From assembly GCF_021295335.1 (NCBI RefSeq), contig NZ_JAIWOT010000001.1:189001-253000 (forward strand): a DNA stretch of 64,000 nucleotides, read 5' to 3'. Of this stretch, positions 42,001 through 59,802 are shown piece after piece (the first letter of the stretch is position 1; every line of letters starts with the position of its first letter). Made by a program: the position numbers and the translations under genes. The notes beneath the pieces were generated by a model. That model had not been told where the DNA came from, did no database searches, and worked only from the letters and a program-made list of their open reading frames with translations. Source of the stretch: Komagataeibacter sp. FNDCF1. Its GTDB lineage: Bacteria; Pseudomonadota; Alphaproteobacteria; Acetobacterales; Acetobacteraceae.

Positions 42001-42042
42001 CGCGGGGCGGCCAGGGGAAAGCCTTGTGCGCAGCAGCTTCAT
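39001..42042 (-). CDS. soxA: Sarcosine oxidase alpha subunit
   Basis: A 1013-residue protein. The start at 42042 overlaps the soxD stop (ATGA). N-terminal residues 20-100 form the ferredoxin-like domain ([34 protein letters not shown]). An NAD-binding domain follows with [21 protein letters not shown] and [20 protein letters not shown]. The C-terminal half is the GcvT-like aminomethyltransferase domain ([49 protein letters not shown]) that binds THF. The complex oxidises sarcosine to glycine and transfers formaldehyde to THF. Length is normal. Confidence 0.95.
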
Positions 42043-42323: not shown

Positions 42324-42330
42324 CGGAACC

Positions 42331-43590: not shown

Positions 43591-44019
43591 CACGAAATCT
43601 TCAATCCGTTACGGGAATGCATGCTAGGCATGGTTCGTGCTGGAGACATTATAAATTTTACTTATGGTATGGTGCGATGCCGCTTCCCGAACCGCCGTTT
43701 GACCTGTCGGCCCTCACATGAGGAGTTTCACGTCAATGGCCACTTTCACTGCGAGATCATTTTTTCTTCTCCGTGTTTTGGATCCATGGTCTGAGCCTGT
43801 TTAACGACTACCGGCGCGATGCCGCACCTGTAGAACCTCACATCCGGTCGCCGCTCGCGCGCGGCAGCACCACTATCCCGCATTCGGGGCAAAGGCTCAG
43901 GAGAACGGGACCATTCTGAAAGGTCGGCATTGCAAGCCATGGGGCCGATCGGTCCGTTCACCTGGATCCACAGGACTGATCAGGTCCTGGGGATGGGGTT
44001 TATGTCTGTGGTGTTTCCA
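43591..44019. other. Region between soxB and the IS110 recombinase
   Basis: About 430 bases. The part nearest soxB should hold the sox promoter; the part nearest 44020 belongs to the noncoding end of the IS110 element, but the boundary is not visible. A perfect 6-bp hairpin CAGGAC / GTCCTG (43971-43989) and the palindrome CCGATCGG (about 43945) suggest RNA structure in the insertion-sequence portion. No gene was supported. Confidence 0.4.
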
Positions 44020-45240
44020 TCAGCGGGACGCCGGATGCGCGCCATCGATAACGACACCACTCGTGACATATTTCCAGAGCGCAACAAGAAGCTTGCGGGC
44101 CAGGGCAACGATCGCCGTTTTGCGGCTCCGGTTACTTCTTGCGCCCACGTGTTCATGGAACCACTGCGCCAGCGCGGTGTCAGGCTGGTAGCGGAGCCAC
44201 AGCCAGGCAAGCTGGATCATGGCCGTGCGCAGGCGCGGATTACCGGATTTCGAGACGCCTTGTTCACGGTCGATCGATCCGCTTTTCCACGGCGAAGGCG
44301 CCAGACCGGCATAAGCCGCGACCTGCCGCCTGTTGTCGAAATGCCGGAACAGTCCTTCCTGCGTCAGAACGGTGGCAAACTCGGCGCCAATCCCTCTGAG
44401 ACCCTGCAACAGGACAACTGGCGAACATTGATTGTTGTCATTCACTTTTGCCAATTCGTCCCGTTCGCTCTCAACCATTTTAATCTGTTCCATGAGAAGT
44501 TCGATGCGGTCCAGTTCTCGTCCGATCTGCGCCTTGAGATGCTTCGGCAAGGGATGACCATCGCCCGTTCGCAACTCGTCGAGACAGGCACGCCGATCCC
44601 GTCGCAGCGGCCGGTAACCTCGAATGCCCTGGCTCAGCAGCAGGCCCTGGACGCGGTTGATATGCCGCGTGCGCTCGCCCACCAGAACCTTACGCTCCCG
44701 ACTGAGACGTCGGCGGTCTTCCTCTTCCCGTGATGGAGGGCGGACCATTGAGCAGACCCGTGCCTCTCCGCGTTTGAACGCCAGCAGCGTACGGACCAGC
44801 ATCTCCCCGTCGATACGATCCGTCTTTGCACGCCGGTGCTTGCGGGGAACTGCGATCGACGCCGCATCGACGACATGGCTCTCGATCCAGTCCTCCTGCT
44901 TCAAGGCTCTATCGATCCAGAATCCATCCAATCCGGCTTCCTGAATCACCACAAGCGGAAAAAGTCTTCCTTCCCGAGCGCGGGCCTTGTCACGAAGACT
45001 AGTGAAACAGCCGAACAGGCCCGCAATATCGCCACCTTGAACCGAGTGGCGCGACATCTTCTCGCTTCCGGGTGAGAGCGATGTGACCAGCCAACTCGAT
45101 TTTCCAAGTTCCAGTGAAACGAAGATCGCGCCAAGATCAACGCGGATAGCGACCGGGGTCGTGGGATGATCAGATGCCTCGAGCATGGTTCTGCCCTCCA
45201 GAGAGTTTCAGCAAGCACACTCTGACACGGCGCGGCTCGC
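43790..45240 (-). mobile_element. IS110-family insertion sequence (ends approximate)
   Basis: The element is recognised from its recombinase gene (44020-45186). IS110 elements usually lack clear terminal repeats and target duplications, so the ends are only estimated: about 43790 on the soxB side and about 45240, where LysR-like coding sequence begins. It sits between soxB and a LysR gene and carries a longer noncoding side downstream of the recombinase than upstream. Confidence 0.6.
44020..45186 (-). CDS. IS110-family transposase (DEDD recombinase)
   Basis: A 388-residue recombinase. The N-terminal DEDD RuvC-like domain shows VDLGAIFVSLEL (Asp), VVIQEAGLDGFW (Glu), and KTDRIDGEMLVRTLLA (two Asp). 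A coiled-coil middle region follows. The C-terminal Transposase_20 domain has LQGLRGIGAEFATVL, RRQVAAYAGLAPSPWKSG and SKSGNPRLRTAMIQLAWLWLRYQP, with the serine in GVSKSGNP. The frame is intact. Confidence 0.95.
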   Translation of the reverse strand: MLEASDHPTTPVAIRVDLGAIFVSLELGKSSWLVTSLSPGSEKMSRHSVQGGDIAGLFGCFTSLRDKARAREGRLFPLVVIQEAGLDGFWIDRALKQEDWIESHVVDAASIAVPRKHRRAKTDRIDGEMLVRTLLAFKRGEARVCSMVRPPSREEEDRRRLSRERKVLVGERTRHINRVQGLLLSQGIRGYRPLRRDRRACLDELRTGDGHPLPKHLKAQIGRELDRIELLMEQIKMVESERDELAKVNDNNQCSPVVLLQGLRGIGAEFATVLTQEGLFRHFDNRRQVAAYAGLAPSPWKSGSIDREQGVSKSGNPRLRTAMIQLAWLWLRYQPDTALAQWFHEHVGARSNRSRKTAIVALARKLLVALWKYVTSGVVIDGAHPASR

Positions 45241-46192: not shown

Positions 46193-46321
46193 TGGACATT
46201 TGTGCCGGCAGGCTGCCGGGCATCCCCGCCGCCGGAATGCCTTGTGTGGCAGGCAGGTCCATGTACACTCGCCACGCCTGTTTCAGGCAACGTGTATTTC
46301 ACGAATGGACCGGACGCGAAC

Positions 46322-47362
46322 ATGCGCAGTACAAAGCTTGTAAATATTGTTACCGCCCATGCGGCGGGTGAGGTCGGTGATGTTATCATAGGCGGGGTCG
46401 CCCCCCCGCCAGGCGAGACGATATGGGAGCAGTCCCGTTTCATCGCGCGTGATGAAACGCTACGTAATTTTGTGCTGAACGAACCGCGCGGGGGCGTGTT
46501 CCGGCATGTCAACCTGCTGGTACCACCGCGTGACCCGCGTGCGCAGATGGGCTGGATCATCATGGAACCGGCGGACACCCCGCCCATGTCGGGTTCCAAT
46601 TCCATCTGTGTCTCCACCGTACTGCTGGAAACCGGCATCATACCGATGCATGAACCGCAGACACACCTGACACTGGAGGCACCGGGCGGGGTCATTGACG
46701 TGACCGCCACCTGCCATGGCGGCAGGGCGGAACGCATCAGCGTGCGTAATGTCCCGTCATTTGCCGCCCGGCTCGATGCCAGCCTGGAGGTGCCCGGTCT
46801 TGGCACCCTGAAGGTGGACACCGCCTATGGCGGGGACAGTTTCGTGATCGTGGATGCACAGGCGCTGGGGCTTGACCTGGAACCCGCATCGGCCCGTAGC
46901 CTTGCGGAACTGGGCATGCGGATAACAGCCGCGGCCAACCGGCAGCTTGGCTTCCATCATCCCACCAATCCGGACTGGGCCCATATTTCGTTCTGCCTGT
47001 TCACGACCCCGGTCACGCGGCATGACGGTGCCTTTACCGCGCCGCATGTCGTGGCGATCCGGCCGGGCAAGATCGATCGTTCACCCACCGGCACCGCCTG
47101 TTCGGCGCGTATGGCGGTACTGCATGCCCGGGGGGAAATGGCGGTGGGTGAGCGCTACGTCGCGCGCTCGATCATCGGTTCGGAGTTTGTGTGCCATATC
47201 GACGCAACGGCGCGGATAGGGGACATTGATGGCATTGTCCCGGTCATTTCCGGCAGTGCATGGATTACCGGTACGCAGCAGCTGATGCTCGACCCGACGG
47301 ATCCCTACCCTGCGGGGTACCGGCTGAGCGATACCTGGCCGGTCATGGATCCGGAAATGTAA
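46322..47362 (+). CDS. Proline-racemase-family enzyme with Ser/Thr active-site pair
   Basis: A 346-residue protein of the proline racemase / hydroxyproline epimerase / 3-hydroxyproline dehydratase superfamily. The start at 46322 ([21 protein letters not shown]) fits the family. Proline racemases use two Cys, in MCGHGT and SPCGTG. Here the first motif is MSGSNSI (Ser90) and the second is SPTGTA (Thr256), so both catalytic Cys are replaced. Known relatives with Thr at the second site are trans-3-hydroxy-L-proline dehydratases. The Ser/Thr pair and the loss of the usual His suggest a different reaction or substrate. The 3' end overlaps a convergent DMT transporter gene by 20 bp. Confidence 0.82.
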
Positions 47363-48353
47363 CCGGTGTCGCGGTTACGGAGCGTTTTGCCTGGCCCTGT
47401 ACCGTGAAATCCACCAGTCCACATATGACCGCACCGATTCCCGTCCATGCGATCAGGCCGGGCATCGGTGCGCCCATGAACACAAGATCACCCAGCAGCG
47501 CAAAGAACATTTCACTGGCCTGTGTTGCGTCGACGGCGGCAATGCGCAGCGGGTCGGATGACAGGTTGCGTGCATAGATGAACAGCGTCATGCCGCCGCA
47601 GCCTGATACAAGCGCTACAAGCGCCGTATCGAGGAACTGCGTATGGGTTGGCGCGGGCGGCGCGCATACTGCCACAACCGCGGCAAAGACCGGCATCGCG
47701 CCAAGGGACAGCAGCAGCACCCCCACCGCCGGATCGGCCAGCAGTTCGCTCCCCTTTATCCGCCCGCCATAGCGTGCCTGGGTCAGCAGCTGGTTGCCCA
47801 GCGGGTAGGCAAAGGCCCCCAGCAGCACGGGCAGGACACCCGCCATGAGCTGCCACGCGCTGGTACCACTTTCCATGCGCGTGACATTGACCACCACCAC
47901 GCCCGCCGCGATGACCACCAGGGACAGGACCCCGCGCAGCGGCACCCGCGCACCGAAGGCCAGCATGACGATGGGTGTTGCCAGGATGGTGATCTGCCAC
48001 GTGGCCGACAGCACCCAGGCAGGTGTATGGCCAGCCGCGTAGCAGAAGCAGGAATACGTTATGCCATAGCCGGTGCCGCCCGCCATGAACCATAAACCCA
48101 GATGCCTGCGGTACAGGTCAAGGACACGGACAACGAACGCCCGTCCCCGCCGGACCAGCAGCCACGCCAGCAGCAGGATGACCGTATCCACGTAGCGTAG
48201 TGCGGCACTCCATGCCCAGTGCCCGCCCTCCAGGCTCATCAGCCGGTTGAAGATAAAGGTGCTGGAGAACATTCCCCCCGCCGCAATGCCAAGAAGCATG
48301 GCACGGACAAGGGACGGTGGCTGGGACGGGGAAGAAAGGGAGGCGGCTGTCAT
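47343..48353 (-). CDS. DMT-superfamily membrane transporter
   Basis: A 336-residue protein with about ten hydrophobic helices, in the multidrug-resistance-efflux (PF13536-like) branch of the drug/metabolite transporter superfamily. Examples are [40 protein letters not shown] and [21 protein letters not shown]. The substrate is unknown; its position beside aminotransferase and racemase-family genes suggests an amino-acid or related compound. The start has little ribosome-binding signal. Confidence 0.8.
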
Positions 48354-48475: not shown

Positions 48476-49684
48476 CTACCGTAACGCGGTGCACGCAGCC
48501 TGCATGCGCGCGCAGCACGCCGAGAGGACCTGCGTGCTCACGCCATAGGCGATGCGCACGTAGCCCGGTGTGCGGAAGGCCGAACCCGGAACCACGGCCA
48601 CGCGGGCGGCTTCCAGCAGATAGGTGGCAAAATCCACATCCGTGTGCAGGACCCGGCCCGATGGTGTCGTGCGGTTCAGGCACCCCCGGATATCGGCAAA
48701 GACATAGAACGCGCCTTCAGGCAGGGTCGCGTCAAGGCCCGGGGTCTGGCGTATCATGGCCATGACCATGTCACGACGCTTGCGCAGGATGGGCATCCAC
48801 GTGTCCAGAAAATCCGTTCCGCCTTCCAGTGCGACACGGGCGGCGTCCTGGCTTATGGAACTGGGGTTGGATGTACTCTGGGACTGAAGGGTATCAAGGG
48901 CTGCGATCAGCCATGCCGGGCCGCCTGCGTAGCCCAGGCGCCAGCCGGTCATGGAAAAGCTCTTGGATACGCCGTTTATGGTCAGGATACGCGATGCGAG
49001 ATCCGGACGCAGCGCGGCGGGTGTGGCAAAGGCGGCATCATAGACAATGGCTTCATATATATCATCCGCCATGATCAGGATGTCATCATGCGCGGCAAGG
49101 ACATCACATAGCGCACCCAGTTCCGCCGCGCTGTAAACCGCACCGGTGGGATTGTTGGGGGAATTGAGGATGATCCAGCGCGTGCGCGGCGTAATGGCGC
49201 GGGCCAGATCATGCGCGCTGAGCTTCCAGCCGTTTTCCGGCAGGCAGGGGACCAGTACCGGCACGCCACCGGCCAGACGGATCATGTCCGGATACGACAC
49301 CCAGCACGGGGTCGGTACGATCACTTCGTCGCCCGCGTCCAGCGTGGCCAGGAAGGCATTGAAGATGATCTGCTTGGCGCCACATGCGGCAATGACCTCG
49401 CTGGCGGCGTAGTCCAGCCCGTTCTGCCGGCGGAAATGCGCGCGGATCGCATCCTTGAGCCCGGTCGTGCCCGCAACGGCCGTGTATTTGGTCAGCCCGG
49501 CGCGGATGGCGTTGATGCCGGCCTCGGCAATCGGGGCGGGGGTGTCAAAATCCAGTTCGCCCTCACCAAGGTTGTCGACCGTGATTCCGTCGGCGGCAAG
49601 CGCGCGCACGGTGTCCGAAATGGCGGCGGTGGGCGATGCGCCAACCGTACCCATGCGTGGGGCCAGCCTGCTGGAGCGTGACAT
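48476..49684 (-). CDS. PLP-dependent aminotransferase, class I/II (aspartate-aminotransferase-like)
   Basis: A 402-residue enzyme. I chose ATG 49684 (MSRSSRLAPRMGTVGASPT) with GAAGGA upstream; longer frames run through a palindrome. It shows LGEGELDFDTP, YTAVAGTTGLKDAIRAHF, LNSPNNPTGAVY, MADDIYE and NGVSKSFSMTGWRLGYAGGP, with the PLP-binding Lys in SKS. It transfers an amino group between an amino acid and a 2-oxo acid. It lies downstream of, and in line with, the GntR-type regulator gene, so it is likely under its control. Confidence 0.92.
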   Translation of the reverse strand: MSRSSRLAPRMGTVGASPTAAISDTVRALAADGITVDNLGEGELDFDTPAPIAEAGINAIRAGLTKYTAVAGTTGLKDAIRAHFRRQNGLDYAASEVIAACGAKQIIFNAFLATLDAGDEVIVPTPCWVSYPDMIRLAGGVPVLVPCLPENGWKLSAHDLARAITPRTRWIILNSPNNPTGAVYSAAELGALCDVLAAHDDILIMADDIYEAIVYDAAFATPAALRPDLASRILTINGVSKSFSMTGWRLGYAGGPAWLIAALDTLQSQSTSNPSSISQDAARVALEGGTDFLDTWMPILRKRRDMVMAMIRQTPGLDATLPEGAFYVFADIRGCLNRTTPSGRVLHTDVDFATYLLEAARVAVVPGSAFRTPGYVRIAYGVSTQVLSACCARMQAACTALR

Positions 49685-49706
49685 GGCGTGAATATTCCTT
49701 CTGTGG

Positions 49707-49740
49707 GGACACACCACGGATCGTGGGGCGTGGTGTGTCC
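49707..49740. promoter_or_regulatory. Long perfect inverted repeat upstream of the aminotransferase gene
   Basis: Perfect 12-bp arms GGACACACCACG / CGTGGTGTGTCC are separated by 10 bases, between the end of the gntR-type gene and the aminotransferase start. There is no T-run, so it may be an operator or a leader hairpin rather than a terminator. The nearby sequence TTGTACAG (about 49744) resembles the TTATACAAA sites in the GntR divergent promoter. Confidence 0.5.
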
Positions 49741-49766
49741 ATATTGTACAGAACATCACATAAAGA

Positions 49767-50684
49767 TCAATCTTGCGCAGCACCTCCGTGTCCGGCCTGC
49801 GCCATGGCCCTTGCCGCCTCATAGGCGCGGTCCAGATGCTCCGCCATCATGGCCGCGGCATCCTGCCTGCGGCCGGTTGACAGGGCCTCCATGATCCGCA
49901 GGTGCTCACGGCACCAGTCGCGCACGCGGCGGCGATTGACGTAGCCGCCGAATTCCAGCAGGCGGCGCAGGCGGTTATGCTGCTGTATTGTCTGTATGAT
50001 GAAGGTATTGTGCGTGAAGCCCGCAATCATTTCGTGGAACTGGGCATCCGTCTCGAAAATCTGTACCGCGCCCACCTGTGTAATATCGGGATGGGATTCC
50101 AGGTAGATATGCTGCAGGCGGCACTGCTCCAGCAGGGTCGGGTCAATCCGGAAGTGTGCGCCCAGAATGCTGTCGGGTTCGAACATGCGGCGGAATTCAT
50201 AGCTGTTCTGCAGCGCGACACGGGTATCCAGCGTCGGCAGGAAACTCCATCCCCGGCCCTGGTTGCGTCTGAGCAGCCCGTCATCGACCAGTCGTTGCAG
50301 CGTGCGCTGCAGCAGGGCGCGATCCACATCATAACGCCTGCTGATGCTGCTCTGGGTAAAGGATTCCGGCAGGTCACCATTCAGCCGGTCCTGTACGATC
50401 CGGGAATACAGGTTCTGCTCGGGCGTGGAGGGAATGGATATATCCAGATTCTGGAGTGTACTGCCATCGGCGACCAGAAAATAGCCCTGATTGGGGCGGG
50501 CTTCGATAATGCCGCGTTCAGCCAGCAGCGCCAGCGCCGTACGGATGGGCGAGCGTGAGAGGCACAGCAGGTCCGCCAGATGCTGTTCACGCAGGTGATG
50601 CCCCGGCCCGAAGCGGCCTTCGCGTATGATATCAAGGATCTGGCTGGCTAGAAGGTAGCGTTTTTGGGTCGGGCGGCGGACCAT
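49767..50684 (-). CDS. GntR-family regulator with FCD domain and a second winged-helix-like segment
   Basis: A 305-residue regulator. The first wHTH (about residues 8-72) reads LREQHLADLLCLSRSPIRTALALLAERGIIEARPNQGYFL. A second HTH-like stretch follows (about 88-155: SSISRRYDVDRALLQRTLQRLVDDGLL then RGWSFLP). The C-terminal FCD ligand domain has FETDAQFHEMIAGFTHN and CREHLRIMEALSTGRRQDAAAMMAEHLDRA with metal/ligand His. AGGA lies before ATG. It is divergent from the ABC-transporter operon and upstream of the aminotransferase gene, so it probably controls both. Confidence 0.88.
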   Translation of the reverse strand: MVRRPTQKRYLLASQILDIIREGRFGPGHHLREQHLADLLCLSRSPIRTALALLAERGIIEARPNQGYFLVADGSTLQNLDISIPSTPEQNLYSRIVQDRLNGDLPESFTQSSISRRYDVDRALLQRTLQRLVDDGLLRRNQGRGWSFLPTLDTRVALQNSYEFRRMFEPDSILGAHFRIDPTLLEQCRLQHIYLESHPDITQVGAVQIFETDAQFHEMIAGFTHNTFIIQTIQQHNRLRRLLEFGGYVNRRRVRDWCREHLRIMEALSTGRRQDAAAMMAEHLDRAYEAARAMAQAGHGGAAQD

Positions 50685-50719
50685 GTATGTCCTGACAGGA
50701 TCGTGCTGAAAGCATCACG

Positions 50720-50728
50720 TTATACAAA
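50720..50728. promoter_or_regulatory. Candidate GntR site, half of an inverted pair
   Basis: TTATACAAA, 36 bp upstream of the gntR start. It is the exact reverse complement of the site at 50807-50815 in the same divergent region. Confidence 0.5.
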
Positions 50729-50784
50729 ATCAGCCACGCCTGTCGATCCATTGCACAGGAATCGGGGGGTGGAATGTTTCGCAC

Positions 50785-50816
50785 TTGACATAAGCGGCGG
50801 AACCACTTTGTATAAT
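50785..50816 (+). promoter_or_regulatory. Promoter and second GntR site of the ABC-transporter operon
   Basis: A perfect TTGACA (50785-50790) and a perfect TATAAT (50811-50816) are 20 bp apart, longer than optimal. The sequence TTTGTATAA (50807-50815), the reverse complement of the upstream TTATACAAA, covers the -10 box. Binding of the GntR protein there would block polymerase. Confidence 0.55.
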
Positions 50817-50884
50817 TAGGCCATAACAGGACAATATTGCCGCTGGCCCTTCCAGCGGCGGTGTCCGGGCATGACAGGGGCCGC

Positions 50885-52447
50885 ATGATCCGCAACCTCA
50901 TCCTTGCCGTACTGTTTCTGCCGTTCGTGCATGCGGGCGCGGCCCGTGCCGCGCCCGGTGCCGTGCTGGCCACCCCCGGCGCGCTGACATCGGCAACGGC
51001 GGCAACGTTCACGCCTTTCGAATTCGTGCGTGACGGGCAGGTAACGGGATTCGATATCGACCTGGCCGGGGCGATCGCACGCCACCTTAAGCTGCAGCCG
51101 GTTACGGTGAACATGCAGTTTGACGGCCTGATCCCGGCATTGCAGGGCGGGCGGGTCGATTTCATCAATTCGGCCATGTACATCAGTCCGCAGCGCAGGC
51201 AGGCGGTCGATTTCGTGCCCTATCTCCAGGTTGCGAACGTGGTGATGGTATCCGCCGCGCGGCAGGGGGGCATAACCGGCAACGACCTGAGCCTGTGCGG
51301 GCGGCAGGTGGCCGTGACCCTTGGCGGGATCGAGGAAGACAACGCCCGTGACGCATCCGCCCGCTGCGTGGCGGCAGGCCACCCGGCGCTGGAGGTCTTC
51401 AGCTTTCCCACCGCGCAGGACACGGCCATGAACCTGCGCGCGGGGCGGGTGGATGCCGCCTTTGATTCCGTCTATGGCGCCGTGACCCTGATGCATGAGA
51501 TGCCAGGCGTCTACACGGTCATGGGGCGGCCGTTCGGAACGGATGCATGGATCGGCTTTGCCGTGCGCAAGGGTGATGTCGCCATGCGCACCATGCTGGC
51601 GGATGCGCTGCATGCGGTGCAGGCCGATGGTACCTTTGCCGCGCTGCTGGAGCGGTGGAACCTGCCGCCGGCGGAAAACGTGCATACCGATGCGCAGGCG
51701 CCTGCCGTGCGGGGCGGCCTGCTGCGCGGGCTGTCGATATGCTGGGGGTATTTTGCATCGTGGCTGTTCTTCAGGGCCGCGATGATGACCCTGCTGGTCA
51801 CGGTCATATCGCTTGCGGCGGGATGTGTGATCGGGCTGGTCGCGGCCCTTGCCCAGTCATCGCGGTTCCGGGCGGTACGGGCGCTGCTGGCGGTGTATCT
51901 GTGGCTGTTCCGTGGCACGCCGGTGCTGCTGCAGATCGTGTTCGTGTATAACGTGCTGCCGGGATTTGGCCTGCGGCTGTCCGCGCTCATGTCGGCGGTG
52001 CTGGCGCTTTCGCTGAATGAAGGTGCATACATGGCTGAAATCATCCGTGCGGGCCTGCGCGCCATCAGGCCCGGGCAGCGTGTCGCGGCGCTGGCTCTTG
52101 GCATGACACCTTTTGGCGTGGTGCGGCATATCGTGGCGCCACAGGCATTTCGTGTCATTGTGCCCATGCTGGGCAATCAGGGCATCGGCATGCTCAAGAC
52201 AAGCGCGCTGGTCTCCGTCATTGCTGTCGAGGACCTGCTGCTGGTTGCCAACCAGGCAGCTTCGGCAAGCTTTCATTATCTTGAGGCACTCAGTGCCGCA
52301 GGCCTGTACTACCTTGCGCTGACAACCCTGTTCATGGCCGGGCAGGCCGTGCTGGAGCGCAGGCTGGACCCGGCGCAGCGCCTGGCGGGCGGCACGCTGT
52401 TTGCGCGCCTGTCACGCATGATGGGGAGCATGACCGATGCACGCTGA
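50885..52447 (+). CDS. Fused substrate-binding protein and permease of a polar-amino-acid ABC importer
   Basis: A 520-residue protein; the start at 50885 has AGGGG five bases upstream. A signal-like N-terminus (LILAVLFLPFVHAGAARA) precedes an SBP_bac_3 domain (about residues 25-265: TFTPFEFVRDGQVTGFDIDLAGAIARHL, MQFDGLIPALQGGRVDFI). A HisM-type permease (about 280-505) follows in the same chain, with AAMMTLLVTVISLAAGCVIGL, FRGTPVLLQIVFVYN and LSLNEGAYMAEIIRAGLRAI (EAA motif). Fusion of binding protein to permease ties the receptor to the membrane. The ATPase gene overlaps by 11 bp. Confidence 0.9.
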   Translation: MIRNLILAVLFLPFVHAGAARAAPGAVLATPGALTSATAATFTPFEFVRDGQVTGFDIDLAGAIARHLKLQPVTVNMQFDGLIPALQGGRVDFINSAMYISPQRRQAVDFVPYLQVANVVMVSAARQGGITGNDLSLCGRQVAVTLGGIEEDNARDASARCVAAGHPALEVFSFPTAQDTAMNLRAGRVDAAFDSVYGAVTLMHEMPGVYTVMGRPFGTDAWIGFAVRKGDVAMRTMLADALHAVQADGTFAALLERWNLPPAENVHTDAQAPAVRGGLLRGLSICWGYFASWLFFRAAMMTLLVTVISLAAGCVIGLVAALAQSSRFRAVRALLAVYLWLFRGTPVLLQIVFVYNVLPGFGLRLSALMSAVLALSLNEGAYMAEIIRAGLRAIRPGQRVAALALGMTPFGVVRHIVAPQAFRVIVPMLGNQGIGMLKTSALVSVIAVEDLLLVANQAASASFHYLEALSAAGLYYLALTTLFMAGQAVLERRLDPAQRLAGGTLFARLSRMMGSMTDAR

Positions 52448-53213
52448 ACCCGCCCCGGACGGACCGGGTATGGCATCACCCACCCCGATCCTTGACCTTG
52501 AGGGTGTGTGCCGCAAGGTGGGCGATACCGTACTGCTTGATGAATGTGCGTTCAGCCTGCCGGCGGGGCAGACCGCCGTTCTGGTCGGGCCGTCGGGGGC
52601 GGGCAAGTCCACGCTGCTGCGCTGCATCAACCTGCTGGCGCCCGCGGACAGGGGGCGTATCGTCTTTGACGGGCGCGATATCATGGCGCCGGGCGTGGAT
52701 GCGCCCGGTGTCCGCCGGGATATCGGCATGGTGTTCCAGAACTTTGAACTGTTTGACCACATGACCGTGCTGGAAAACATCATGCTGGCCCCCATGCATG
52801 TGCGTGGCATGTCGCGTGCACGGGCCCGTGACCTGGCCATGTCGCTGCTGGAAAAGGTGCACCTGCCCCACCGCGCGGATGCGCTGCCATCGGGGCTGTC
52901 GGGTGGCCAGCAGCAGCGTGCCGCGATTGCCCGTGCCCTGGCAATGCAGCCACGCCTGATGCTGTATGACGAACCGACATCCGCCCTTGATCCCGAAATG
53001 ACGGGAGAGGTGCTGACAGTCATGTCCGACCTGGCCGCCGAGGGCATGGCCAGTGTCGTTGTTACCCATGAAATGGGCTTTGCCCGCCGCGTTGCCGACC
53101 GGATCGTCTTCATGCAGGCCGGGCAGGTCGTGGAGGAGGCGGCCAGCGCCGATTTCTTTGCCGGAAACTGCAGTGCACGCGCGCAGCGTTTTCTGGAACG
53201 CGTGATGGACTGA
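52437..53213 (+). CDS. ABC transporter ATPase, polar amino acid type
   Basis: A 258-residue ATPase. It has Walker A VGPSGAGKSTLLRCIN, the Q-loop MVFQNFELFDHMTVLENI (typical GlnQ/HisP), signature LSGGQQQRAAIARALAMQP, Walker B LMLYDEPTSALDPEM, and the switch VVVTHEMGFAR. It energises the fused binding-protein/permease encoded immediately upstream (11-bp overlap). It is part of the operon running to 59761. Confidence 0.93.
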   Translation: MHAEPAPDGPGMASPTPILDLEGVCRKVGDTVLLDECAFSLPAGQTAVLVGPSGAGKSTLLRCINLLAPADRGRIVFDGRDIMAPGVDAPGVRRDIGMVFQNFELFDHMTVLENIMLAPMHVRGMSRARARDLAMSLLEKVHLPHRADALPSGLSGGQQQRAAIARALAMQPRLMLYDEPTSALDPEMTGEVLTVMSDLAAEGMASVVVTHEMGFARRVADRIVFMQAGQVVEEAASADFFAGNCSARAQRFLERVMD

Positions 53214-53276
53214 TCACGTGCAATCGTTTTTTCCCCTTCCCCGTACATCATGACCGAACCAGACGGATACAGACAT

Positions 53277-54434
53277 ATGACGCAGACCCCGGACCTTGAG
53301 CGGATGAAACATGACCTGGCGGCGCTGATTGCGATGCCCAGCGAGAACCCGCCCGGCCACGAAGCGCAGGTGGCGGATTATGTCGCAGCCCGGCTGGAGC
53401 CACTGGGGTTTGTCATCACCCGTGATGAATATGCGCCCGGCCGGGTCAATATCGAAGCGCGGCTTGATAATGGTGCCGGTCCGGTGTTTGCCCTGAACAC
53501 CCACATGGACGTGGTACCCGCCGGCACCGGATGGACCCATGACCCCTTTGTCATGACGGAGGTGGACGGACGGCTGTACGGCCGTGGATCGGGTGACTGC
53601 AAGGGGTCGCTGGTCTGCATGATGGAGGCGGGGCGCATGCTGGCGGCCGAACGCGACAGATGGCGGGGTACGCTGCTTCTGGTCTTTGTCGCGGATGAGG
53701 AAGTGGCCAGCGAAGGTGCGCGGCGATACGTGAAAACCGCGCCGCATATCGACTTCGTCATCGTGGGCGAACCCACGGCCAATACCACCTATGCCGCGCA
53801 CAAGGGCAGCCTGAGGCCGCTGGTGCGGGTACATGGCACGCCGGCCCATTCCGGCACGCCGGACCTGGGGGACAATGCCATCTATCGGGCGGCGGCACTC
53901 GTGAACATGGTCGCGGCCGAACATGCGCAGGTGGTGCGGCATATCGAACATCCCCTGGTCGGCGCGGCAAGCCTTACGATCACACGCGTAAGCGGGGGGC
54001 ATGCGGATAATGTGGTACCGCAGGCCTGTGACCTGCTGCTTGACCGGCGCATGGTCCCGGGCGAGGACGAGGACGCGGTCAGGGCCGGGATCACGGACCT
54101 GCTGGCGCGTGCCAATGCGCAGGAAGGGGTGCGGGCGGAAATACTTGAATTCCGTCCCACGACGGGCGGCGCGGTCGAAACGCCCGCCGGACACGCCATT
54201 GTAAGGAAAAGCCTGGAAGTCTGCCGGGCCAATGGTGTGGCGGACCCGGGGCCGTTCGGCTTTCAGGGCGCGTGCGATCTGGTCCATTTCTGCAATGCCG
54301 GTGCCGCGGGCGTGGTGATCGGCCCGGGCGTGCTGGAAGTCGCGCACAAGGCGGATGAATACGTGCCCGAGGCCGACCTGCCTGTTGCGGCAGCCATCTA
54401 TCGCGACATGATCATCGCCATGATGGGCGCGTGA
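53277..54434 (+). CDS. M20-family metallohydrolase (ArgE/DapE-like)
   Basis: A 385-residue zinc amidohydrolase (394 if ATG 53250 is used; neither start has a strong ribosome-binding site). It has FALNTHMDVVPAGTGWTHDPF (zinc His and catalytic Asp), LYGRGSGDCKGSLVCMM (bridging Asp), VADEEVASEG (catalytic Glu), VIVGEP, the dimerisation domain VRVHGTPAHSGTPDLGDNAI, and the late zinc His in VAHKADEYVPEADL. Relatives remove acetyl, succinyl or acyl groups from amino acids. It is third in the operon, after the importer, so it may deacylate the imported compound. Confidence 0.92.
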   Translation: MTQTPDLERMKHDLAALIAMPSENPPGHEAQVADYVAARLEPLGFVITRDEYAPGRVNIEARLDNGAGPVFALNTHMDVVPAGTGWTHDPFVMTEVDGRLYGRGSGDCKGSLVCMMEAGRMLAAERDRWRGTLLLVFVADEEVASEGARRYVKTAPHIDFVIVGEPTANTTYAAHKGSLRPLVRVHGTPAHSGTPDLGDNAIYRAAALVNMVAAEHAQVVRHIEHPLVGAASLTITRVSGGHADNVVPQACDLLLDRRMVPGEDEDAVRAGITDLLARANAQEGVRAEILEFRPTTGGAVETPAGHAIVRKSLEVCRANGVADPGPFGFQGACDLVHFCNAGAAGVVIGPGVLEVAHKADEYVPEADLPVAAAIYRDMIIAMMGA

Positions 54435-54441
54435 TCCCATC

Positions 54442-55566
54442 ATGCGGATAAGCCTTCACCGCGCGATGCTGACCTATGCCGACCCGGCGGCATCGGTCCA
54501 TACCGCGTCCTCCGGGCCGGTTGCGGGGCTGGATACACTTTACCTGTGCATTGCGCCGGAACATGCGCACCCGGCGGTGGGTGAGGTCAGGATAAACTGC
54601 GCCTATCTCAATGGCCATGCGCCGGGGGACATCATCCGCGCGGCGGTCGCGATGCTGCCCGGCATCGACTGGGCGGCCGGTCCGGACGCGCTGATCGCGC
54701 AGGGGGCGGGGGCAGGACAGATCGCCCCGGTGCGCATGCTGCTTGATACGGCCCTGCATGACTGGGCGGCGCGGGAGCGGAACCTGCCGGTCGCGGCAAT
54801 GCTGGAACCCGGCATGCCGGGTAACGCCGCCCGGGCGGGGACGGGCGTGCTTGCGCATGCCACGAACCAGACCCTGTTCCTGTCACCGATGCCGGTGTTC
54901 ATGGCGCGGGCGGAAGCGTATGTGGCGCGCGGTTTTACCGATCTCAAGGTCAGGCTGGGTGTGGATGCGCATGATGATATGGCCCGTATCGTCGCGTTAC
55001 GCACCCGCTTTGGCGGGCGCATCCGTATTGCCGCCGATGCCAATGGCGCATGGGATGAGAATACGGCCCGCCGGATGCTCGACCGGCTTGCGGCATATGA
55101 CCTGTCCTATGTCGAGCAGCCCGTCATGCCGGGGGACTGGGCCATGCTGGCGCGGATTGCGCGGGAAAGTCCCATCGCGCTGATGCTGGACGAGAGCATG
55201 GCCTCTCCTGCCGATGTGGGGCGGATCATTGGCCTGCCACGTAATGTGATGGCACATCTCAAGTTGCTGAAATTCGGTGGTGTCGCACCGGTCATGGCGG
55301 CAGCGCGGCAGTTGGCGGCTGCAGGCGTGGGGGTCATGACGGGACAGATGAACGAAGGCGGCATTGCCACGGCCGCCATGCTGCATGTGGCGGTGGCGAC
55401 AGCGCCCGTCCATGCCGAACTGTATGGCGCGGATGGCCTGTCCAATGATGCGGCAACCGGCCTGGCATATGGCGCGGGCATGGTGCGCGTGCCGGCCGGG
55501 CCCGGCTGGGGTGTGTCTTTCAATCCTGCGGAAACAACGCTTGTAACGGAGTACAGGGTAGCATGA
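54442..55566 (+). CDS. Enolase-superfamily enzyme, mandelate racemase/muconate lactonizing type
   Basis: A 374-residue protein. The capping domain (about residues 1-120) is followed by a barrel with LKVRLG (Lys169, Arg171 in place of the usual second Lys), the metal ligands ADANGAW (Asp199), YVEQPV (Glu225) and LDESM (Asp250), then KLLKFGGV (Lys274), and late GQMNEGGIATAAMLHVA. The Lys274 side is like dipeptide epimerases, N-acyl amino-acid racemases and hydroxyproline-betaine epimerase. The Arg at the other base position suggests one-sided acid/base chemistry. It starts 7 bp after the M20 gene and overlaps the next gene by 4 bp. Confidence 0.85.
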   Translation: MRISLHRAMLTYADPAASVHTASSGPVAGLDTLYLCIAPEHAHPAVGEVRINCAYLNGHAPGDIIRAAVAMLPGIDWAAGPDALIAQGAGAGQIAPVRMLLDTALHDWAARERNLPVAAMLEPGMPGNAARAGTGVLAHATNQTLFLSPMPVFMARAEAYVARGFTDLKVRLGVDAHDDMARIVALRTRFGGRIRIAADANGAWDENTARRMLDRLAAYDLSYVEQPVMPGDWAMLARIARESPIALMLDESMASPADVGRIIGLPRNVMAHLKLLKFGGVAPVMAAARQLAAAGVGVMTGQMNEGGIATAAMLHVAVATAPVHAELYGADGLSNDAATGLAYGAGMVRVPAGPGWGVSFNPAETTLVTEYRVA

Positions 55567-56735
55567 ATGCAATCGAAGGTGTGGTGCAGGGGCAGGAAGC
55601 AACCTTTCCACGCGCCGAATATGACGGGCGCATCGCGCGCACCCGCGCGGAAATGGAACGGGCCGGCCTGGATGTGATGGTCGTGACCGGACCGGAAAAC
55701 ATCTATTACCTGACCGGCCAGCAGACACCGGGATATTACACGTTCCAGTGCCTGCTCCTGCCGGTGGATGGTGATCCGGTCTTCATCATCCGCCAGCTGG
55801 AATATTTCAATTTCATTGCCAATACCTATCAGTCCGATGCCCGGATCTATCAGGACGGGCAGAGCCCGCTCAGGCTGCTGGGGGAAGTGATACGCGAGCG
55901 GGGCTACGCCACGCGGCGGATTGGCGTGGACAAGAATGGCTGGTTCCTCTCGCCCACGGCGTATGAGGCGCTGTGCACGCAGCTGGGCACGGTGCATGAC
56001 GCTGCGGGCATCGTCGAACGGCAGCGTGCCGTCAAATCTCCGCATGAGGTTGAAAAGATCGCGCGTGCGGCAACCTACGTGAATGCGGGCATGCGCGCCG
56101 GGCTGGCCAGCGTGCGTGCTGGCGCGAGCGAGAACGACATGGTCTCCGCCATGATGGGGTCGGCCATTGCCGCCGGGTCCGAATATGTGGGCATGGAGCC
56201 GCTTGTCTCCTCCGGTCCGCGCAGCGGGGTGCCGCATGGAACATGGCGGCGGCGGGTGATGGCCGCGGGCGACCCGGCCTTTCTGGAGATGGCGGGCTGT
56301 CATGACCGTTATCACGCGGCACTGATGCGTTCGGCATGGATTGGTCGCCCCCCGGCCGAAGCGGTGGACATGATGAAGGTCTGCCAGGACGCGCTGGCCG
56401 CCTCGCTGGATGCGATCCGGCCCGGAGTGGCCTGTCAGGAACCGCACCGTGTCTGCCAGCGCATCATCGATGCCGCCGGATATACCGACAGTTTCCGCAA
56501 GCGTCTGGGCTACAGCATCGGCATCGCCTTTGCACCCGACTGGGGCGAGGGTGCGATACTGAGCCTGAATGAAGGCGAAACCACGGAACTGCGCCCCGGC
56601 ATGACCTTTCACCTGCCCCCGGCACTGCGCCTGTACGGGCGTTTTACCGTGGGTGTCAGCGAAAGCATTGTCGTGACCGAAACCGGATGCCGCGTACTGG
56701 GTGATGTCAGCCGTGATCTTGTGGTGGTGGAATAG
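55563..56735 (+). CDS. M24-fold hydrolase without metal ligands (creatinase / ectoine-hydrolase-like)
   Basis: A 390-residue pita-bread-fold protein. The creatinase N-terminal domain has VVTGPENIYYLTGQQTPGYYTFQCLLLPVDG. The C-terminal domain has RAVKSPHEVEKIARAATYV, SGPRSGVPHGTW, EMAGCHDRYHAALMRSAWIG and RLGYSIGIAFAPDWGEG, then GMTFHLPP. Metal-dependent aminopeptidases place Asp, Asp, His, Glu, Glu in these motifs; most are missing here. The pattern is nearest to ectoine hydrolase (DoeA) and creatinase, which cleave cyclic amidines or guanidino compounds without metal. The substrate is uncertain. It overlaps the enolase-family gene (ATGA). Confidence 0.83.
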   Translation: MNAIEGVVQGQEATFPRAEYDGRIARTRAEMERAGLDVMVVTGPENIYYLTGQQTPGYYTFQCLLLPVDGDPVFIIRQLEYFNFIANTYQSDARIYQDGQSPLRLLGEVIRERGYATRRIGVDKNGWFLSPTAYEALCTQLGTVHDAAGIVERQRAVKSPHEVEKIARAATYVNAGMRAGLASVRAGASENDMVSAMMGSAIAAGSEYVGMEPLVSSGPRSGVPHGTWRRRVMAAGDPAFLEMAGCHDRYHAALMRSAWIGRPPAEAVDMMKVCQDALAASLDAIRPGVACQEPHRVCQRIIDAAGYTDSFRKRLGYSIGIAFAPDWGEGAILSLNEGETTELRPGMTFHLPPALRLYGRFTVGVSESIVVTETGCRVLGDVSRDLVVVE

Positions 56736-56793
56736 GGGCCACGACTTCCGCTGCATGATTATTCCGAAAAAAGCATGAGAAGAACATAAGACC

Positions 56794-57714
56794 ATGAAGA
56801 ACATTGACGAAAGTCGTGAACGCCTGCGGGGCATATTCAACATCACGGTAACGCCCTTTGGCCCCGATGGCGCCATTGACCTGCCCGGTATCACGCGCAG
56901 CATCGAGCGCGTGCTGGGGCTGGGTTATGACGGTGTGCTGATCGGGGGCACGTATGGCGAGTTCCCGGTCATGTCACCGGATGAACGCGCGGGTCTTTTC
57001 CGCCATGTCATGGATGTGGTCGGCGGGCGCGCGCCGGTCATGCTGTGCAGCGCGGATTCCGACCCGCGCGTGACACGGGACCTGAGCATCCTGGCCGGGG
57101 AACTGGGTGGCGTACCCATGGTCATGGCGCCTTATGTGTCGGAAATCACCGATGCGCAGATCCTTGCATTCTTCCGTGAGATCGCACCCCTGTCGCGCAC
57201 GGGCACGATCATCTACAACGCGCCCGGCATTGGCATCACGCTTTCCCCCGCGCTGATCGAACAGCTGGCGGAAGTGGACGGGATCGTGGCGCTCAAGCAG
57301 GGAGACCTGTCGGTGGGAGCGATTGACCGGATCGCCAATACGCTTTCCGGCCGGATCAGGCTGTTCTGCGCCTCGGACCTGGCATTCCATGGGCCCATGA
57401 TGAACGGGTTCGACGGCATCAGCACAACCAATTCCTGCGCGCTGCCCGAACTGGTCCTGGCCAGCTTCCGGGCCCTGCAGCGCGGGGATGCGCATCTGTC
57501 ACGTGACCTGCACAGGCTGTGGTACGGCTATCGTGCGCTGGCGCGCGGCATGGGCCAGCCGCAGATGGTCAAGGCCGCCATGGCGCTGCGTGGGTTTGAT
57601 GGCGGTTCGGTCAGGCGCCCCCTGCAAGATCTGGATGCGGCACAGAAGGCCGCCGTGGCCGATGTGATGCGCGCGCTGGCAGCCGACCCGCGTGCCGGCT
57701 TTACCCTGGGCTGA
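56794..57714 (+). CDS. DapA-family lyase/deaminase (dihydrodipicolinate synthase superfamily)
   Basis: A 306-residue class I aldolase-fold enzyme. It has ITVTPFGPDGAIDLPGI, GGTYGEFPVMSPDER (carboxylate-binding loop, GGxxGE variant), IIYNAPGIGI (Tyr141) and IVALKQGD (Schiff-base Lys168). These are the hallmarks of the superfamily that includes DapA, NanA, KDG aldolases and 4-hydroxy-pyrroline-2-carboxylate deaminases. The rest of the operon suggests action on a 2-oxo acid or cyclic imine from amino-acid breakdown rather than lysine synthesis. It lies 58 bp after the M24 gene. Confidence 0.9.
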   Translation: MKNIDESRERLRGIFNITVTPFGPDGAIDLPGITRSIERVLGLGYDGVLIGGTYGEFPVMSPDERAGLFRHVMDVVGGRAPVMLCSADSDPRVTRDLSILAGELGGVPMVMAPYVSEITDAQILAFFREIAPLSRTGTIIYNAPGIGITLSPALIEQLAEVDGIVALKQGDLSVGAIDRIANTLSGRIRLFCASDLAFHGPMMNGFDGISTTNSCALPELVLASFRALQRGDAHLSRDLHRLWYGYRALARGMGQPQMVKAAMALRGFDGGSVRRPLQDLDAAQKAAVADVMRALAADPRAGFTLG

Positions 57715-57735
57715 AGCCGGACGGGGCGGACGGAT

Positions 57736-58980
57736 ATGACGTTGATCATGGTGCGGCATGACACGGGCCGCCCCGGCCTGTATGGCGCGGCGGCGGGCGT
57801 GGTGGCGCGCGCGCTGGACGGGCAGGTCATGCACGGCCCGGTGCATGTGGATGAGACACGGGACCCCGATGGGTGCCAGCATGTCGGCCTTGCCCCCGAA
57901 CGTCTGCCCAGCGGCCTGCTGCATGCCGAACGTCTGACCGGCCGGACCATGGGGCCGGTGGCTGATGTGGACCGGATCATGGCGGTGGCGGCGGTGGAAA
58001 ACGTGGTCGTGCCATATGATGGGCTGCTGGATGACGGTTCCGGCTTTGCCAGTGACCTGCTGCGGCGGGGTGCATGTGCCGGCATGCGCCTGATTGACGC
58101 AGGGCTGGAGGATGACGCGCTCGTCTGCCGGGATGAGCGGAATGGAACGGTTGTAGCACGGGCATGGCAGGATGGTTTCGGCCGGTTCCACCCGGAGCCT
58201 GCACATCACGCCGGCCGTGACATGGCGCGTCATGACCCGGTCAGGATCGCGCTCATCGGCACGGCCGGTACGCATCACACGGTCTATCCCGGTGCCCTGG
58301 CGGCGCTGGGCGATGCGGCGGAGGCACTGGGGGTGGACGTGGACGTCACGTTTATCGACCCGGCGGCATCGGATGATGATCCATGCTACCCGGCACTGGT
58401 GGCATCTGATGGCGTGCTGCTGCCTGGCGGGGCGGCGGCTCCGTCCGTGCGGGGACAGATCCGCGCGGCGGGCGTTGCGCTGGCGCATGGTGTGCCTGTC
58501 ATGGGGCTGTGCCTGGGCATGCAGACCATGACAACCGCCTTTGCCCGCCTGCGCGCGGCCATGCCGGATGTGGCAATGGCCGAAGTGGCGGAGGGGAAGG
58601 GAACATCACTCAGTTTCCGGGCGCATGACCATTACCGGCTGGGCATCAATGCGCTCCATCCCGTGCCCGACACGGAACTGGGGGCGATGCTGGCGGATGG
58701 GGCATGTGTCATACGGAGCAACCACCGCTACGTACTCAATACGGACCTGCTGCCCCCCCTGTGTGCCGCCGGGCTGCGCGTGGCGGCATGGAATGACGAC
58801 GGCACGGTGGTCGAAGGGATCGAGCTGCCCGGCCATCCCTTTTACATGGGCATGCAGGGCCACCCCGAACTGACATCGGCGGCGGGCAGGCCCCACCCGC
58901 TGTGTACCGCCTTTGTGCAGGCGGCCAGGGTGCGGCATGACAGGCGGGGCCGGATGGATAACAGAAAAGGAAAACAGTAG
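57736..58980 (+). CDS. Glutamine-amidotransferase-like protein related to the CTP synthase GATase domain, with unknown N-terminal domain
   Basis: A 414-residue protein. The C-terminal half (from about residue 168, VRIALIGTAGTHHTVYPG) matches the class I amidotransferase domain of CTP synthase: DGVLLPGGAAAPSVRGQIRAA, VPVMGLCLGMQTM (nucleophile Cys259) and MGMQGHPELTSAAGRPHPLC (His376, Glu378). The full Cys-His-Glu triad is present. The ATP/UTP synthetase domain of CTP synthase is absent. In its place is about 165 residues of unrecognised sequence (HDTGRPGLYGAAAGVV, LLHAERLTG, VPYDGLLDDGSGFASDLL). It may hydrolyse a gamma-glutamyl or amide compound made or imported by this operon. Confidence 0.8.
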   Translation: MTLIMVRHDTGRPGLYGAAAGVVARALDGQVMHGPVHVDETRDPDGCQHVGLAPERLPSGLLHAERLTGRTMGPVADVDRIMAVAAVENVVVPYDGLLDDGSGFASDLLRRGACAGMRLIDAGLEDDALVCRDERNGTVVARAWQDGFGRFHPEPAHHAGRDMARHDPVRIALIGTAGTHHTVYPGALAALGDAAEALGVDVDVTFIDPAASDDDPCYPALVASDGVLLPGGAAAPSVRGQIRAAGVALAHGVPVMGLCLGMQTMTTAFARLRAAMPDVAMAEVAEGKGTSLSFRAHDHYRLGINALHPVPDTELGAMLADGACVIRSNHRYVLNTDLLPPLCAAGLRVAAWNDDGTVVEGIELPGHPFYMGMQGHPELTSAAGRPHPLCTAFVQAARVRHDRRGRMDNRKGKQ

Positions 58981-58981
58981 T

Positions 58982-59761
58982 ATGGATATGGGTATTGCAG
59001 GGCGTCTTGCCCTGGTCATGGGGTCCAGTCAGGGGCTTGGCCTTGCCAGCGCGCAGGCACTGGCGCGTGAGGGCGCGCGGGTTATCCTGACGGGACGGGA
59101 TGCGGCACGGCTGGAAGCCGCATGCGCCACCATCCGTGCCACGGGTGGCACGGTGGAAGCCCGGGTGGTCGATTTTGCCGACGCGGCACAGGTTGCGACC
59201 CTGCTGGAAGGGCTGGCGGATACGGCAATAGACATTCTGGTCACCAATGGCGGTGGTCCGCCCCCCGGCCCGATTGCCGACGTGGCGCCCGAGGTCTGGC
59301 AGGCACAGTTTGACCGGATGGTGACCGTGCCGCTGCGTATAGTGCAGGCCGTGCTGCCGGGCATGCGCGCGCGGGGATGGGGGCGGATTGTCAATATCGT
59401 GTCGTCCGGCGTGGTCCAGCCCATTCCCAACCTGGGCATTTCCAATACGCTGCGCATGGGGCTGATCGGGTGGGCCAAGACGCTGGCAACGGAGGTCGCG
59501 GCGGATGGCGTGACCGTCAACTCCGTCGTGCCGGGGCGTATCCACACCACGCGTGTGGATCAGCTTGACGCCGCGGCGGCCGGACGGACCGGTAAAACGG
59601 TGGAAGAAGTGGCCGCGGCATCGCGCGCGACCATTCCCATGCGGCGATATGGCCATCCGGATGAATTTGCCGCTGCCGTCTGTTTCCTTTCCAGCGCGGT
59701 GGCGTCATACATGACGGGCAGCATGATGCGTGTTGACGGCGGCATGATCCGGAGCTGCTGA
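58982..59761 (+). CDS. Atypical SDR (3-oxoacyl-ACP-reductase-like, no catalytic Tyr)
   Basis: A 259-residue SDR. ATG 58982 lies just after the previous stop, with AAGGA ten bases upstream. The nucleotide site reads VMGSSQGLGLASAQALAREG (TG replaced by MG), then VTNGGGPPPGPI in place of the NAG motif, and IVNIVSSGVVQPIPNLGISNTLRMGLIGWAKTLA. The normal Tyr-x-x-x-Lys is Asn-x-x-x-Met/Arg. This matches a known BKR-like SDR subgroup that lacks the canonical tetrad. It is the last gene of the operon and is followed by a terminator. Confidence 0.86.
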   Translation: MDMGIAGRLALVMGSSQGLGLASAQALAREGARVILTGRDAARLEAACATIRATGGTVEARVVDFADAAQVATLLEGLADTAIDILVTNGGGPPPGPIADVAPEVWQAQFDRMVTVPLRIVQAVLPGMRARGWGRIVNIVSSGVVQPIPNLGISNTLRMGLIGWAKTLATEVAADGVTVNSVVPGRIHTTRVDQLDAAAAGRTGKTVEEVAAASRATIPMRRYGHPDEFAAAVCFLSSAVASYMTGSMMRVDGGMIRSC

Positions 59762-59780: not shown

Positions 59781-59802
59781 GCCCGATACCGGGCCGTTTT
59801 TT
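59781..59802 (+). terminator. Rho-independent terminator of the catabolic operon
   Basis: GCCCG-ATAC-CGGGC stem-loop followed by CG and six T (59797-59802), 20 bases after the SDR stop. The T-run ends at the stop codon of the convergent LysR gene. Confidence 0.75.

Follow-up and report, generated by a model that had tools for sequence, protein, structure and literature searches.

The 64,000-nucleotide stretch of Komagataeibacter sp. FNDCF1 DNA analyzed here (hereafter the window, part of a 3.74-Mb genome) carries a cluster that, on comparison with other genomes, comprises ten genes: an eight-gene operon, a divergent gene for a GntR/FCD regulator, and a gene for a class I aminotransferase (Table 1). 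On balance, we lean slightly toward reading it as a GntR-controlled, horizontally spread catabolic system for an N-blocked amino acid, either acylated or cyclic, that is similar to ectoine degradation and directed at another substrate. An initial annotation of the region had assigned the eight genes to a single system that takes up and breaks down an amino acid derivative. Co-inheritance over 87 loci agrees with this view; as for the extent of the cluster, the eight genes stand and two more join them, the GntR gene (present in 84 of 87 loci) and the aminotransferase gene (62 of 87).

The cluster is more than a chance arrangement because its gene set recurs in these 87 loci. They were picked by their M24 protein alone, with partner genes then called by tblastn, and consist of the best 80 of 154 M24-bearing stretches from named genomes, 4 plasmid loci, and 3 further genome loci. 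Two entries (L046 and L058) are one Komagataeibacter saccharivorans contig, so that counts over 86 loci drop L046; absence of a gene means absence from the stretch examined, with flanks reaching no more than about 10 kb to either side and some stretches ending at contig ends. The M20, enolase-superfamily, and M24 genes (the triad) are adjacent and in this order in all 87 loci, and M20 and the enolase were each called in 87. The fused substrate-binding protein (SBP)/permease and the ATPase were found in 86 loci each, GntR in 84, the CTP-synthase-like GATase protein in 77, the aminotransferase in 62, the DapA-family protein in 57, and the SDR in 46. The GATase, aminotransferase, and SDR genes vary in position and strand among taxa while retaining cluster membership. 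On plasmids, M24 proteins at 60 to 80% identity and the enolase (E ≤ 1e-30) occur in one and the same set of 30 records. In the more distant M24 loci L049 to L051 (32 to 36% identity), enolase and M20 proteins of the cluster's type were not found. These comparisons show that the gene set is co-inherited as one system. The initial annotation had named co-occurrence in other genomes as a check, and the families do recur together, with the triad present in every one of the M24-chosen loci.

The lower part of the pathway appears to exist in two versions, one with DapA (mostly accompanied by the SDR) and the other, version B, with a GhrA-like D-2-hydroxyacid dehydrogenase (mostly accompanied by a VOC protein). 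Among 86 loci, 56 have only DapA, 18 only GhrA, none both, and 12 neither (Fisher p 6e-11, computed on rows that are not independent). The SDR is found in 44 loci with DapA, in 1 with neither, and in none with GhrA; the VOC protein is confined to GhrA loci, 15 of the 18 having it. The class I aminotransferase (61 loci) and a D-amino-acid transaminase (7 loci) are never found together. A quick M24 tree calls for at least six changes between the DapA and GhrA versions, and because the versions swap on this tree, both modules may serve the same intermediate.

The M24 protein, previously proposed to be of the creatinase/ectoine-hydrolase type, retains that assignment. Its best solved relative is the ectoine hydrolase DoeA (PDB 6twj; 197 bits). 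In the alignment with prolidase-type 7n02, the five columns that we take to hold the metal ligands of M24 metallopeptidases (D, D, H, E, and E) are occupied by E242, A253, Y317, P352, and S366, all invariant in 86/86 rows. Because these five ligand columns are replaced, the protein belongs with the metal-free creatinase/ectoine-hydrolase group. It has the same letters as 6twj at His225, Glu242, His251, Tyr317, Glu329, His350, and Glu367, again invariant in all 86 rows, and we infer these to be the catalytic positions. Ectoine, hydroxyectoine, or a close variant might then come to mind as the substrate, the more so as the transporter domains match EhuA, EhuC, and EhuD. However, the M24 protein misses the NCBIfam cutoffs by far (316 of 575 bits for NF038259, DoeA_2; 240 of 613 bits for TIGR02993, EutD), and the window's cluster has, among its ten genes, no DoeB/EutE-, DoeC-, or EutA-C-type gene. 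With M24 under the cutoffs and the partner genes missing, we reject this reading as highly improbable.

In the enolase-superfamily protein, D199, N201, E225, D250, K274, and E326 are invariant in 85/85 rows; D199, E225, and D250 are presumably the metal ligands and Lys274 the catalytic Lys. The KxK motif, which together with the opposite Lys we take to form the two-Lys machinery, is replaced by K169-x-R171 in all 85 rows. Since KxR stands in for KxK, elimination is conceivable. The structural model (pLDDT 93) has as its nearest folds the dipeptide epimerases 3rit, 1jpm, and 3ijq and the N-succinyl-Arg/Lys racemase 2p88, with 3rit, 2p88, and 1jpm at the top of the sequence and fold searches. 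This suggests an alternative in which a true dipeptide epimerase works with M20 and M24 peptidases on D-residue or gamma-glutamyl peptides (murein-like or of plant origin), the GATase protein being a gamma-glutamyl hydrolase. The Peptidase_C26 profile, which also matches the GATase domain, and the D-amino-acid transaminase in 7/86 loci fit such a route, whereas the uniform replacement of KxK by KxR, an M24 protein without peptidase metal ligands, and a transporter of the polar amino acid type do not; we therefore regard it as unlikely.

The preferred N-blocked amino acid draws on the SBP. Arg104, in what we take to be the column of the carboxylate-binding Arg, is kept in 82/82 rows. Ser195, present in 79/82 rows, falls in a column that is Asp in the best-scoring amino-acid-binding relatives and is presumably that of the ammonium-binding residue. 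The binding site thus keeps the carboxylate Arg and not the ammonium Asp, which supports in kind the earlier suggestion of an acylated or cyclic amino acid.

The GATase protein has the triad C259, H376, and E378 in 75/75 rows. Its model (pLDDT 95) is aligned by Foldseek along its entire length with complete CTP synthases, with a TMq of 0.62 to 0.74 among the 50 rows listed, compared with 0.52 for the four GATase-only entries. Its N-terminal domain, however, has about 165 residues versus about 285 in CTP synthase, lacks a GK motif in the first 60 residues in 75/75 rows, and shows no similarity to PyrG in a profile comparison (hhalign probability 0.9%). From its predicted structure, we read this protein as a CTP synthase relative with a shrunken, ATP-less synthetase domain. 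In the DapA-family protein, K168 and Y141, which we take to be the catalytic Lys and Tyr of the DapA/NAL Schiff-base superfamily, are present in 56/56 rows; the protein is weakly similar to 4-hydroxy-2-oxoglutarate aldolase 3s5n (52 bits), with many DapA-family enzymes scoring higher. The SDR had been called atypical, and rightly so: its YxxxK motif is replaced in 45/45 rows, with Ser155 and Arg159 at the Tyr and Lys positions. Overall, the enzymes of the cluster keep their catalytic residues, some of them in altered form.

A glutamine/pyroglutamate-type skeleton, a special case of the N-blocked amino acid, is attractive, if unproven. Here the M24 enzyme would convert a cyclic amidine or lactam by ring opening into a glutamine-like amide, the GATase protein would hydrolyze this amide to a substituted glutamate, transamination would give a 2-oxoglutarate analogue, and DapA would split it into pyruvate and a glyoxylate-like aldehyde that is then reduced. 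In addition to the conserved Cys-His-Glu triad of the GATase protein and the similarity of DapA to 3s5n, the genomic context of a sister M24 clade (51 to 53% identity) points in this direction. In all five of its loci that were read (L138 to L141 and L144, from Agrobacterium tumefaciens AF1/95 [L138, pAtAF1_95], two R. tumorigenes, Salipiger, and Methylobacterium radiotolerans), the M24 gene adjoins the 5-oxoprolinase genes PxpABC and a VOC gene whose product is 81 to 92% identical to the version B VOC. A D-amino-acid transaminase and a 2-hydroxyacid dehydrogenase are encoded in four of the five (not in Methylobacterium), and a carbamoylase-type M20 in three. The sister clusters also have a GntR gene, to which the A. 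tumefaciens cluster adds a DUF1989 protein; the one in Salipiger shares the aminotransferase (57%) and the SDR (52%) as well, with a DapA-family gene nearby whose product is only 25% identical to the window's DapA. We know of no description of this M24-VOC-PxpABC-GntR cluster, for which hardly any dedicated literature search was made. Against a glutamine/pyroglutamate-type substrate, many DapA-family enzymes outscore 3s5n, and a swap of the GATase protein for PxpABC inside the cluster could not be established from the four loci inspected by eye: a lone PxpA lies near the GATase-less L076 and L129, nothing of the kind was seen in L090, and in L104 (Pseudomonas) PxpC/PxpB-like genes lie on the opposite strand, beyond a ureohydrolase gene and another SBP gene. 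On this evidence, the proposal is tentative at best.

For the system as a whole, we infer the following substrate class and order of steps. The SBP/permease and its ATPase would import a small carboxylate whose alpha-nitrogen is blocked, either acylated or in a ring. The M24 enzyme would hydrolyze an amidine or amide C-N bond, opening the ring or splitting a peptide-like bond, after which the enolase-superfamily enzyme would move or remove the alpha-proton of an N-acyl intermediate, by epimerization or elimination, and M20 would take off the acyl group. The CTP-synthase-like protein might hydrolyze a side-chain carboxamide. Transamination of the released amino acid would give a 2-oxo acid, to be finished by either the DapA-type lyase and the atypical SDR or the VOC protein and the D-2-hydroxyacid dehydrogenase. 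In two Pantoea loci, a gene for a glutathione-independent formaldehyde dehydrogenase (L057, 13746 to 14945; L108, 14829 to 16025) lies behind the aminotransferase gene; it is annotated as such in L057 and was assigned in L108 by clustering with the L057 protein. Its location may be a sign that the DapA step releases formaldehyde, or it may be due to chance.

Several observations weigh against this scheme or restrict it. DapA, SDR, GATase, and aminotransferase genes are each missing from some loci, so that the accessory genes may not all be obligatory; 5 of the 86 loci, all in Bradyrhizobium, have the importer, regulator, and triad only, with no accessory genes in the flanks examined. On the 3.4-kb contig L157, outside the census, the ATPase and enolase genes are direct neighbors, and the M20 gene is not interposed. 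Because the census consists of the best 80 of 154 stretches plus seven other loci, distant forms are under-sampled. The KxR motif of the enolase could signal a reaction other than epimerization. Finally, the loss of the SBP Asp depends on an alignment that may be shifted by one residue: HMMER sets this Asp one residue off for two of the five relatives shown, and the neighboring column, which is unconserved, has Asp in 32/82 rows.

Dozens of unrelated bacteria from plants, soil, and the sea carry the same core. The hosts are Alpha-, Beta-, and Gammaproteobacteria and include Rhizobium, Bradyrhizobium, Ancylobacter, Bosea, Methylobacterium, Rhodobacterales, Gluconacetobacter, and Tanticharoenia, as well as Paraburkholderia, Caballeronia, Pseudomonas, Pantoea, Erwinia, Rahnella, Klebsiella, and one Acinetobacter; the core is also present on the At megaplasmid pAtC58 of Agrobacterium fabrum C58. 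Within the genus, a close M24 orthologue (93% identity) was found in 2 of 19 genomes (the window's own and 18 relatives), the others giving weak matches only. Within the family, the enolase model matches 6 of 150 genomes, including the window's own (E ≤ 1e-60); in the other five, the enolase gene adjoins the M24 gene in every case and M20 is present in four, the exception being L157. On the quick M24 tree, the Acetobacteraceae rows (the window, K. saccharivorans, Gluconacetobacter, and Tanticharoenia) form one group (SH-aLRT 96), and Acinetobacter rathckeae is placed among the Pantoea rows. The distribution appears to be patchy, with loss and transfer. Such a patchy, partly plasmid-borne spread, together with three hydrolases able to inactivate a toxic amide or amidine, would also fit a resistance function in which the gene products inactivate an antimetabolite amino acid after its import. 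However, a dedicated importer and genes for a terminal lyase and transaminase would fit nutrition better, and we consider resistance improbable.

All eight operon genes lie on the forward strand, with overlaps or gaps under 65 bp, as previously described, and Pfam and NCBIfam agree with the gene families named at that time. The SBP-permease and ATPase genes overlap by 11 bp and the enolase and M24 genes by 4 bp; the remaining gaps are 63 bp (ATPase-M20), 7 bp (M20-enolase), 58 bp (M24-DapA), 21 bp (DapA-GATase), and 1 bp (GATase-SDR). For M20, the ATG at 53277 was taken as the start; the true start of the aminotransferase may lie further inside its open reading frame (ORF), near 49720.

Table 1. 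Predicted features of the ten-gene cluster and its control elements (window coordinates)
Feature	Position	Strand	Basis
Class I pyridoxal phosphate (PLP)-dependent aminotransferase, PRK06107-like	48476..49822	-	62/87 loci
GntR/FCD regulator, divergent from operon	49767..50684	-	84/87 loci
Divergent control region, two inverted half-sites (ATACAA at 50722, TTGTAT at 50808)	50717..50820	.	Half-site counts
SBP-permease fusion, polar amino acid ATP-binding cassette (ABC) family	50885..52447	+	SBP_bac_3 + BPD_transp_1 (Pfam/NCBIfam)
ABC transporter ATPase, GlnQ/EhuA-like	52437..53213	+	Pfam/NCBIfam; 86/87 loci
M20 ArgE/DapE-type amidohydrolase/deacylase	53277..54434	+	Pfam/NCBIfam; 87/87 loci
Enolase-superfamily enzyme, K169-x-R171 in place of KxK	54442..55566	+	MR_MLE_C; 87/87 loci
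M24 enzyme, metal-free ectoine-hydrolase/creatinase type	55563..56735	+	M24 + Creatinase_N, closest to DoeA; 87/87 loci (selection gene)
DapA-family Schiff-base lyase/aldolase, Lys168, Tyr141	56794..57714	+	DHDPS; 57/87 loci
CTP-synthase-like glutaminase, Cys259/His376/Glu378, 165-residue N-terminal domain without P-loop	57736..58980	+	GATase; 77/87 loci
SDR-fold protein, Ser155/Arg159 instead of Tyr/Lys	58982..59761	+	SDR; 46/87 loci
Intrinsic terminator, hairpin + T run, after SDR gene	59781..59802	+	Pattern scan and fold

The initial annotation had proposed an operator-like promoter for the operon. The window has the half-sites TATACAA and TTGTATA around 50722 and 50808, and the TTGTATA/TATACAA form occurs in 38 of the 84 regions upstream of GntR genes (mean of 2.5 and maximum of 8 in shuffles). 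The ATTGTAT/ATACAAT form, which the window itself does not have, occurs in 53 of 84 (mean, 3.4; maximum, 6). The background was 40 dinucleotide shuffles, and the 84 regions include the window and one duplicate (L046 and L058). No sigma-70 promoter pattern was found in the scanned region (0 versus 1.8 in shuffles). A palindromic operator matrix separated poorly from the AT-rich background, since several other places in the window scored higher, and the half-site counts against shuffles took its place. The proposed terminator consists of a GCCCG-ATAC-CGGGC hairpin (59781 to 59794) followed by CGTTTTTT. Its fold has an energy of -12 kcal/mol (z -2.0), with 9 of 200 shuffles equally good. Since terminator-like patterns in the region are no commoner than in shuffles (4 versus 4.7), the terminator is supported by its position.

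On the left side of the cluster lie a proline-racemase-family gene (46202 to 47362, + strand) and an EmrE-family (DMT-like) transporter gene (47343 to 48353, - strand). They are found beside the cluster also in K. saccharivorans (L046/L058), the rest of the 87 loci lacking them, and because of this restriction they look like genus neighbors outside the system. Further away, at 37550 to 43593 on the reverse strand, are sarcosine-oxidase-like genes, including an alpha subunit with SO_alpha_A3 and GCV_T domains and a DAO-type protein, and near them, within the same interval and strand, a purU-like formyltransferase gene with an ACT domain; an IS110-type transposase gene (44020 to 45186) lies between these genes and the cluster. 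The initial annotation had invoked soxBDAG and a ureohydrolase nearby in proposing a creatine- or betaine-like substrate. Breakdown of creatine, guanidino compounds, or betaine tied to these neighbors would accord with the soxB/soxA-like and ureohydrolase genes in the window and with the distant relationship of M24 to creatinase (38 bits to 1chm). However, ureohydrolase genes (31 to 32% identity) were found in 2 of 87 loci and soxB/soxA in none, within the same flanks of about 10 kb or less, and the transposase gene separates the sox genes from the cluster. As the ureohydrolase and sarcosine oxidase genes do not travel with the cluster, we reject this idea, whose chances appear minimal. The two ureohydrolase genes lie directly behind DapA in Pseudomonas loci (L104, 15513 to 16433; L113, at about 15486). 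Elsewhere in the window, a 2,856-amino-acid ORF (19148 to 27718, - strand) has GH94 supersandwich and catalytic domains and a putative glucoamylase domain; we take it to encode a cyclic beta-1,2-glucan synthase-like protein.

Because the core of the ten-gene set recurs in dozens of unrelated bacteria, it probably represents a widespread nutrient pathway that is still undescribed; a literature search confined largely to nonsubscription papers found no published description of this gene combination. It is an even call whether the pathway, with its dedicated triad, a CTP synthase relative that has become a pure amide hydrolase, two alternative lower modules, and parts in common with a 5-oxoprolinase sister pathway, is a widely transferred route for a common natural N-blocked amino acid, a nutrient of plants, soil, and sea not yet linked to genes. 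In the annotated records examined, these proteins are called only "Xaa-Pro peptidase," "mandelate racemase/muconate lactonizing enzyme," and "CTP synthase" or "gamma-glutamyl-gamma-aminobutyrate hydrolase." With the substrate in hand, the annotation of these genes could be corrected in many genomes, a nutrient common to many plant-associated bacteria would come to light, and it could be tested how a biosynthetic ligase becomes a hydrolase.

The closest known counterpart is ectoine degradation, in which ring opening falls to DoeA, deacetylation to DoeB, transamination to DoeD, and oxidation to DoeC (PMC3187862). It thus offers a precedent for the combination of an M24 hydrolase, a deacetylase, a transaminase, and a dehydrogenase (PMC3187862 and PMC5924519). 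The doeABCD and ehuABCD-eutABCDE clusters have in common with the cluster studied here a polar amino acid ABC importer, a GntR-superfamily regulator, an M24 hydrolase, an amidohydrolase, an aminotransferase, an oxidoreductase, and a proteobacterial spread (PMC3187862, PMC5924519). The deacylase of the present system, by contrast, is of the M20 and not of the desuccinylase/aspartoacylase type, its M24 protein is well under the DoeA cutoffs, and it includes in addition an enolase-superfamily protein, a glutaminase resembling CTP synthase, and either DapA or VOC/GhrA. Its regulator is of the FCD type, whereas the ectoine regulator EnuR is MocR-like. The sister M24-PxpABC clusters differ in that no enolase or M20 of this type was found in their five loci; they have 5-oxoprolinase subunits (5/5) and a carbamoylase-type M20 (3/5) instead. 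The GATase protein shares with CTP synthase PyrG the Cys-His-Glu GATase domain and the whole-chain structural alignment and departs from it in its shorter N-terminal domain, which has neither the GK motif nor profile similarity. Likewise, the enolase-superfamily protein has the fold, D199/E225/D250, and Lys274 in common with the dipeptide epimerases and N-succinylamino acid racemases of the muconate lactonizing enzyme (MLE) subgroup and is set apart from them by K169-x-R171 in place of KxK in every one of its 85 rows.

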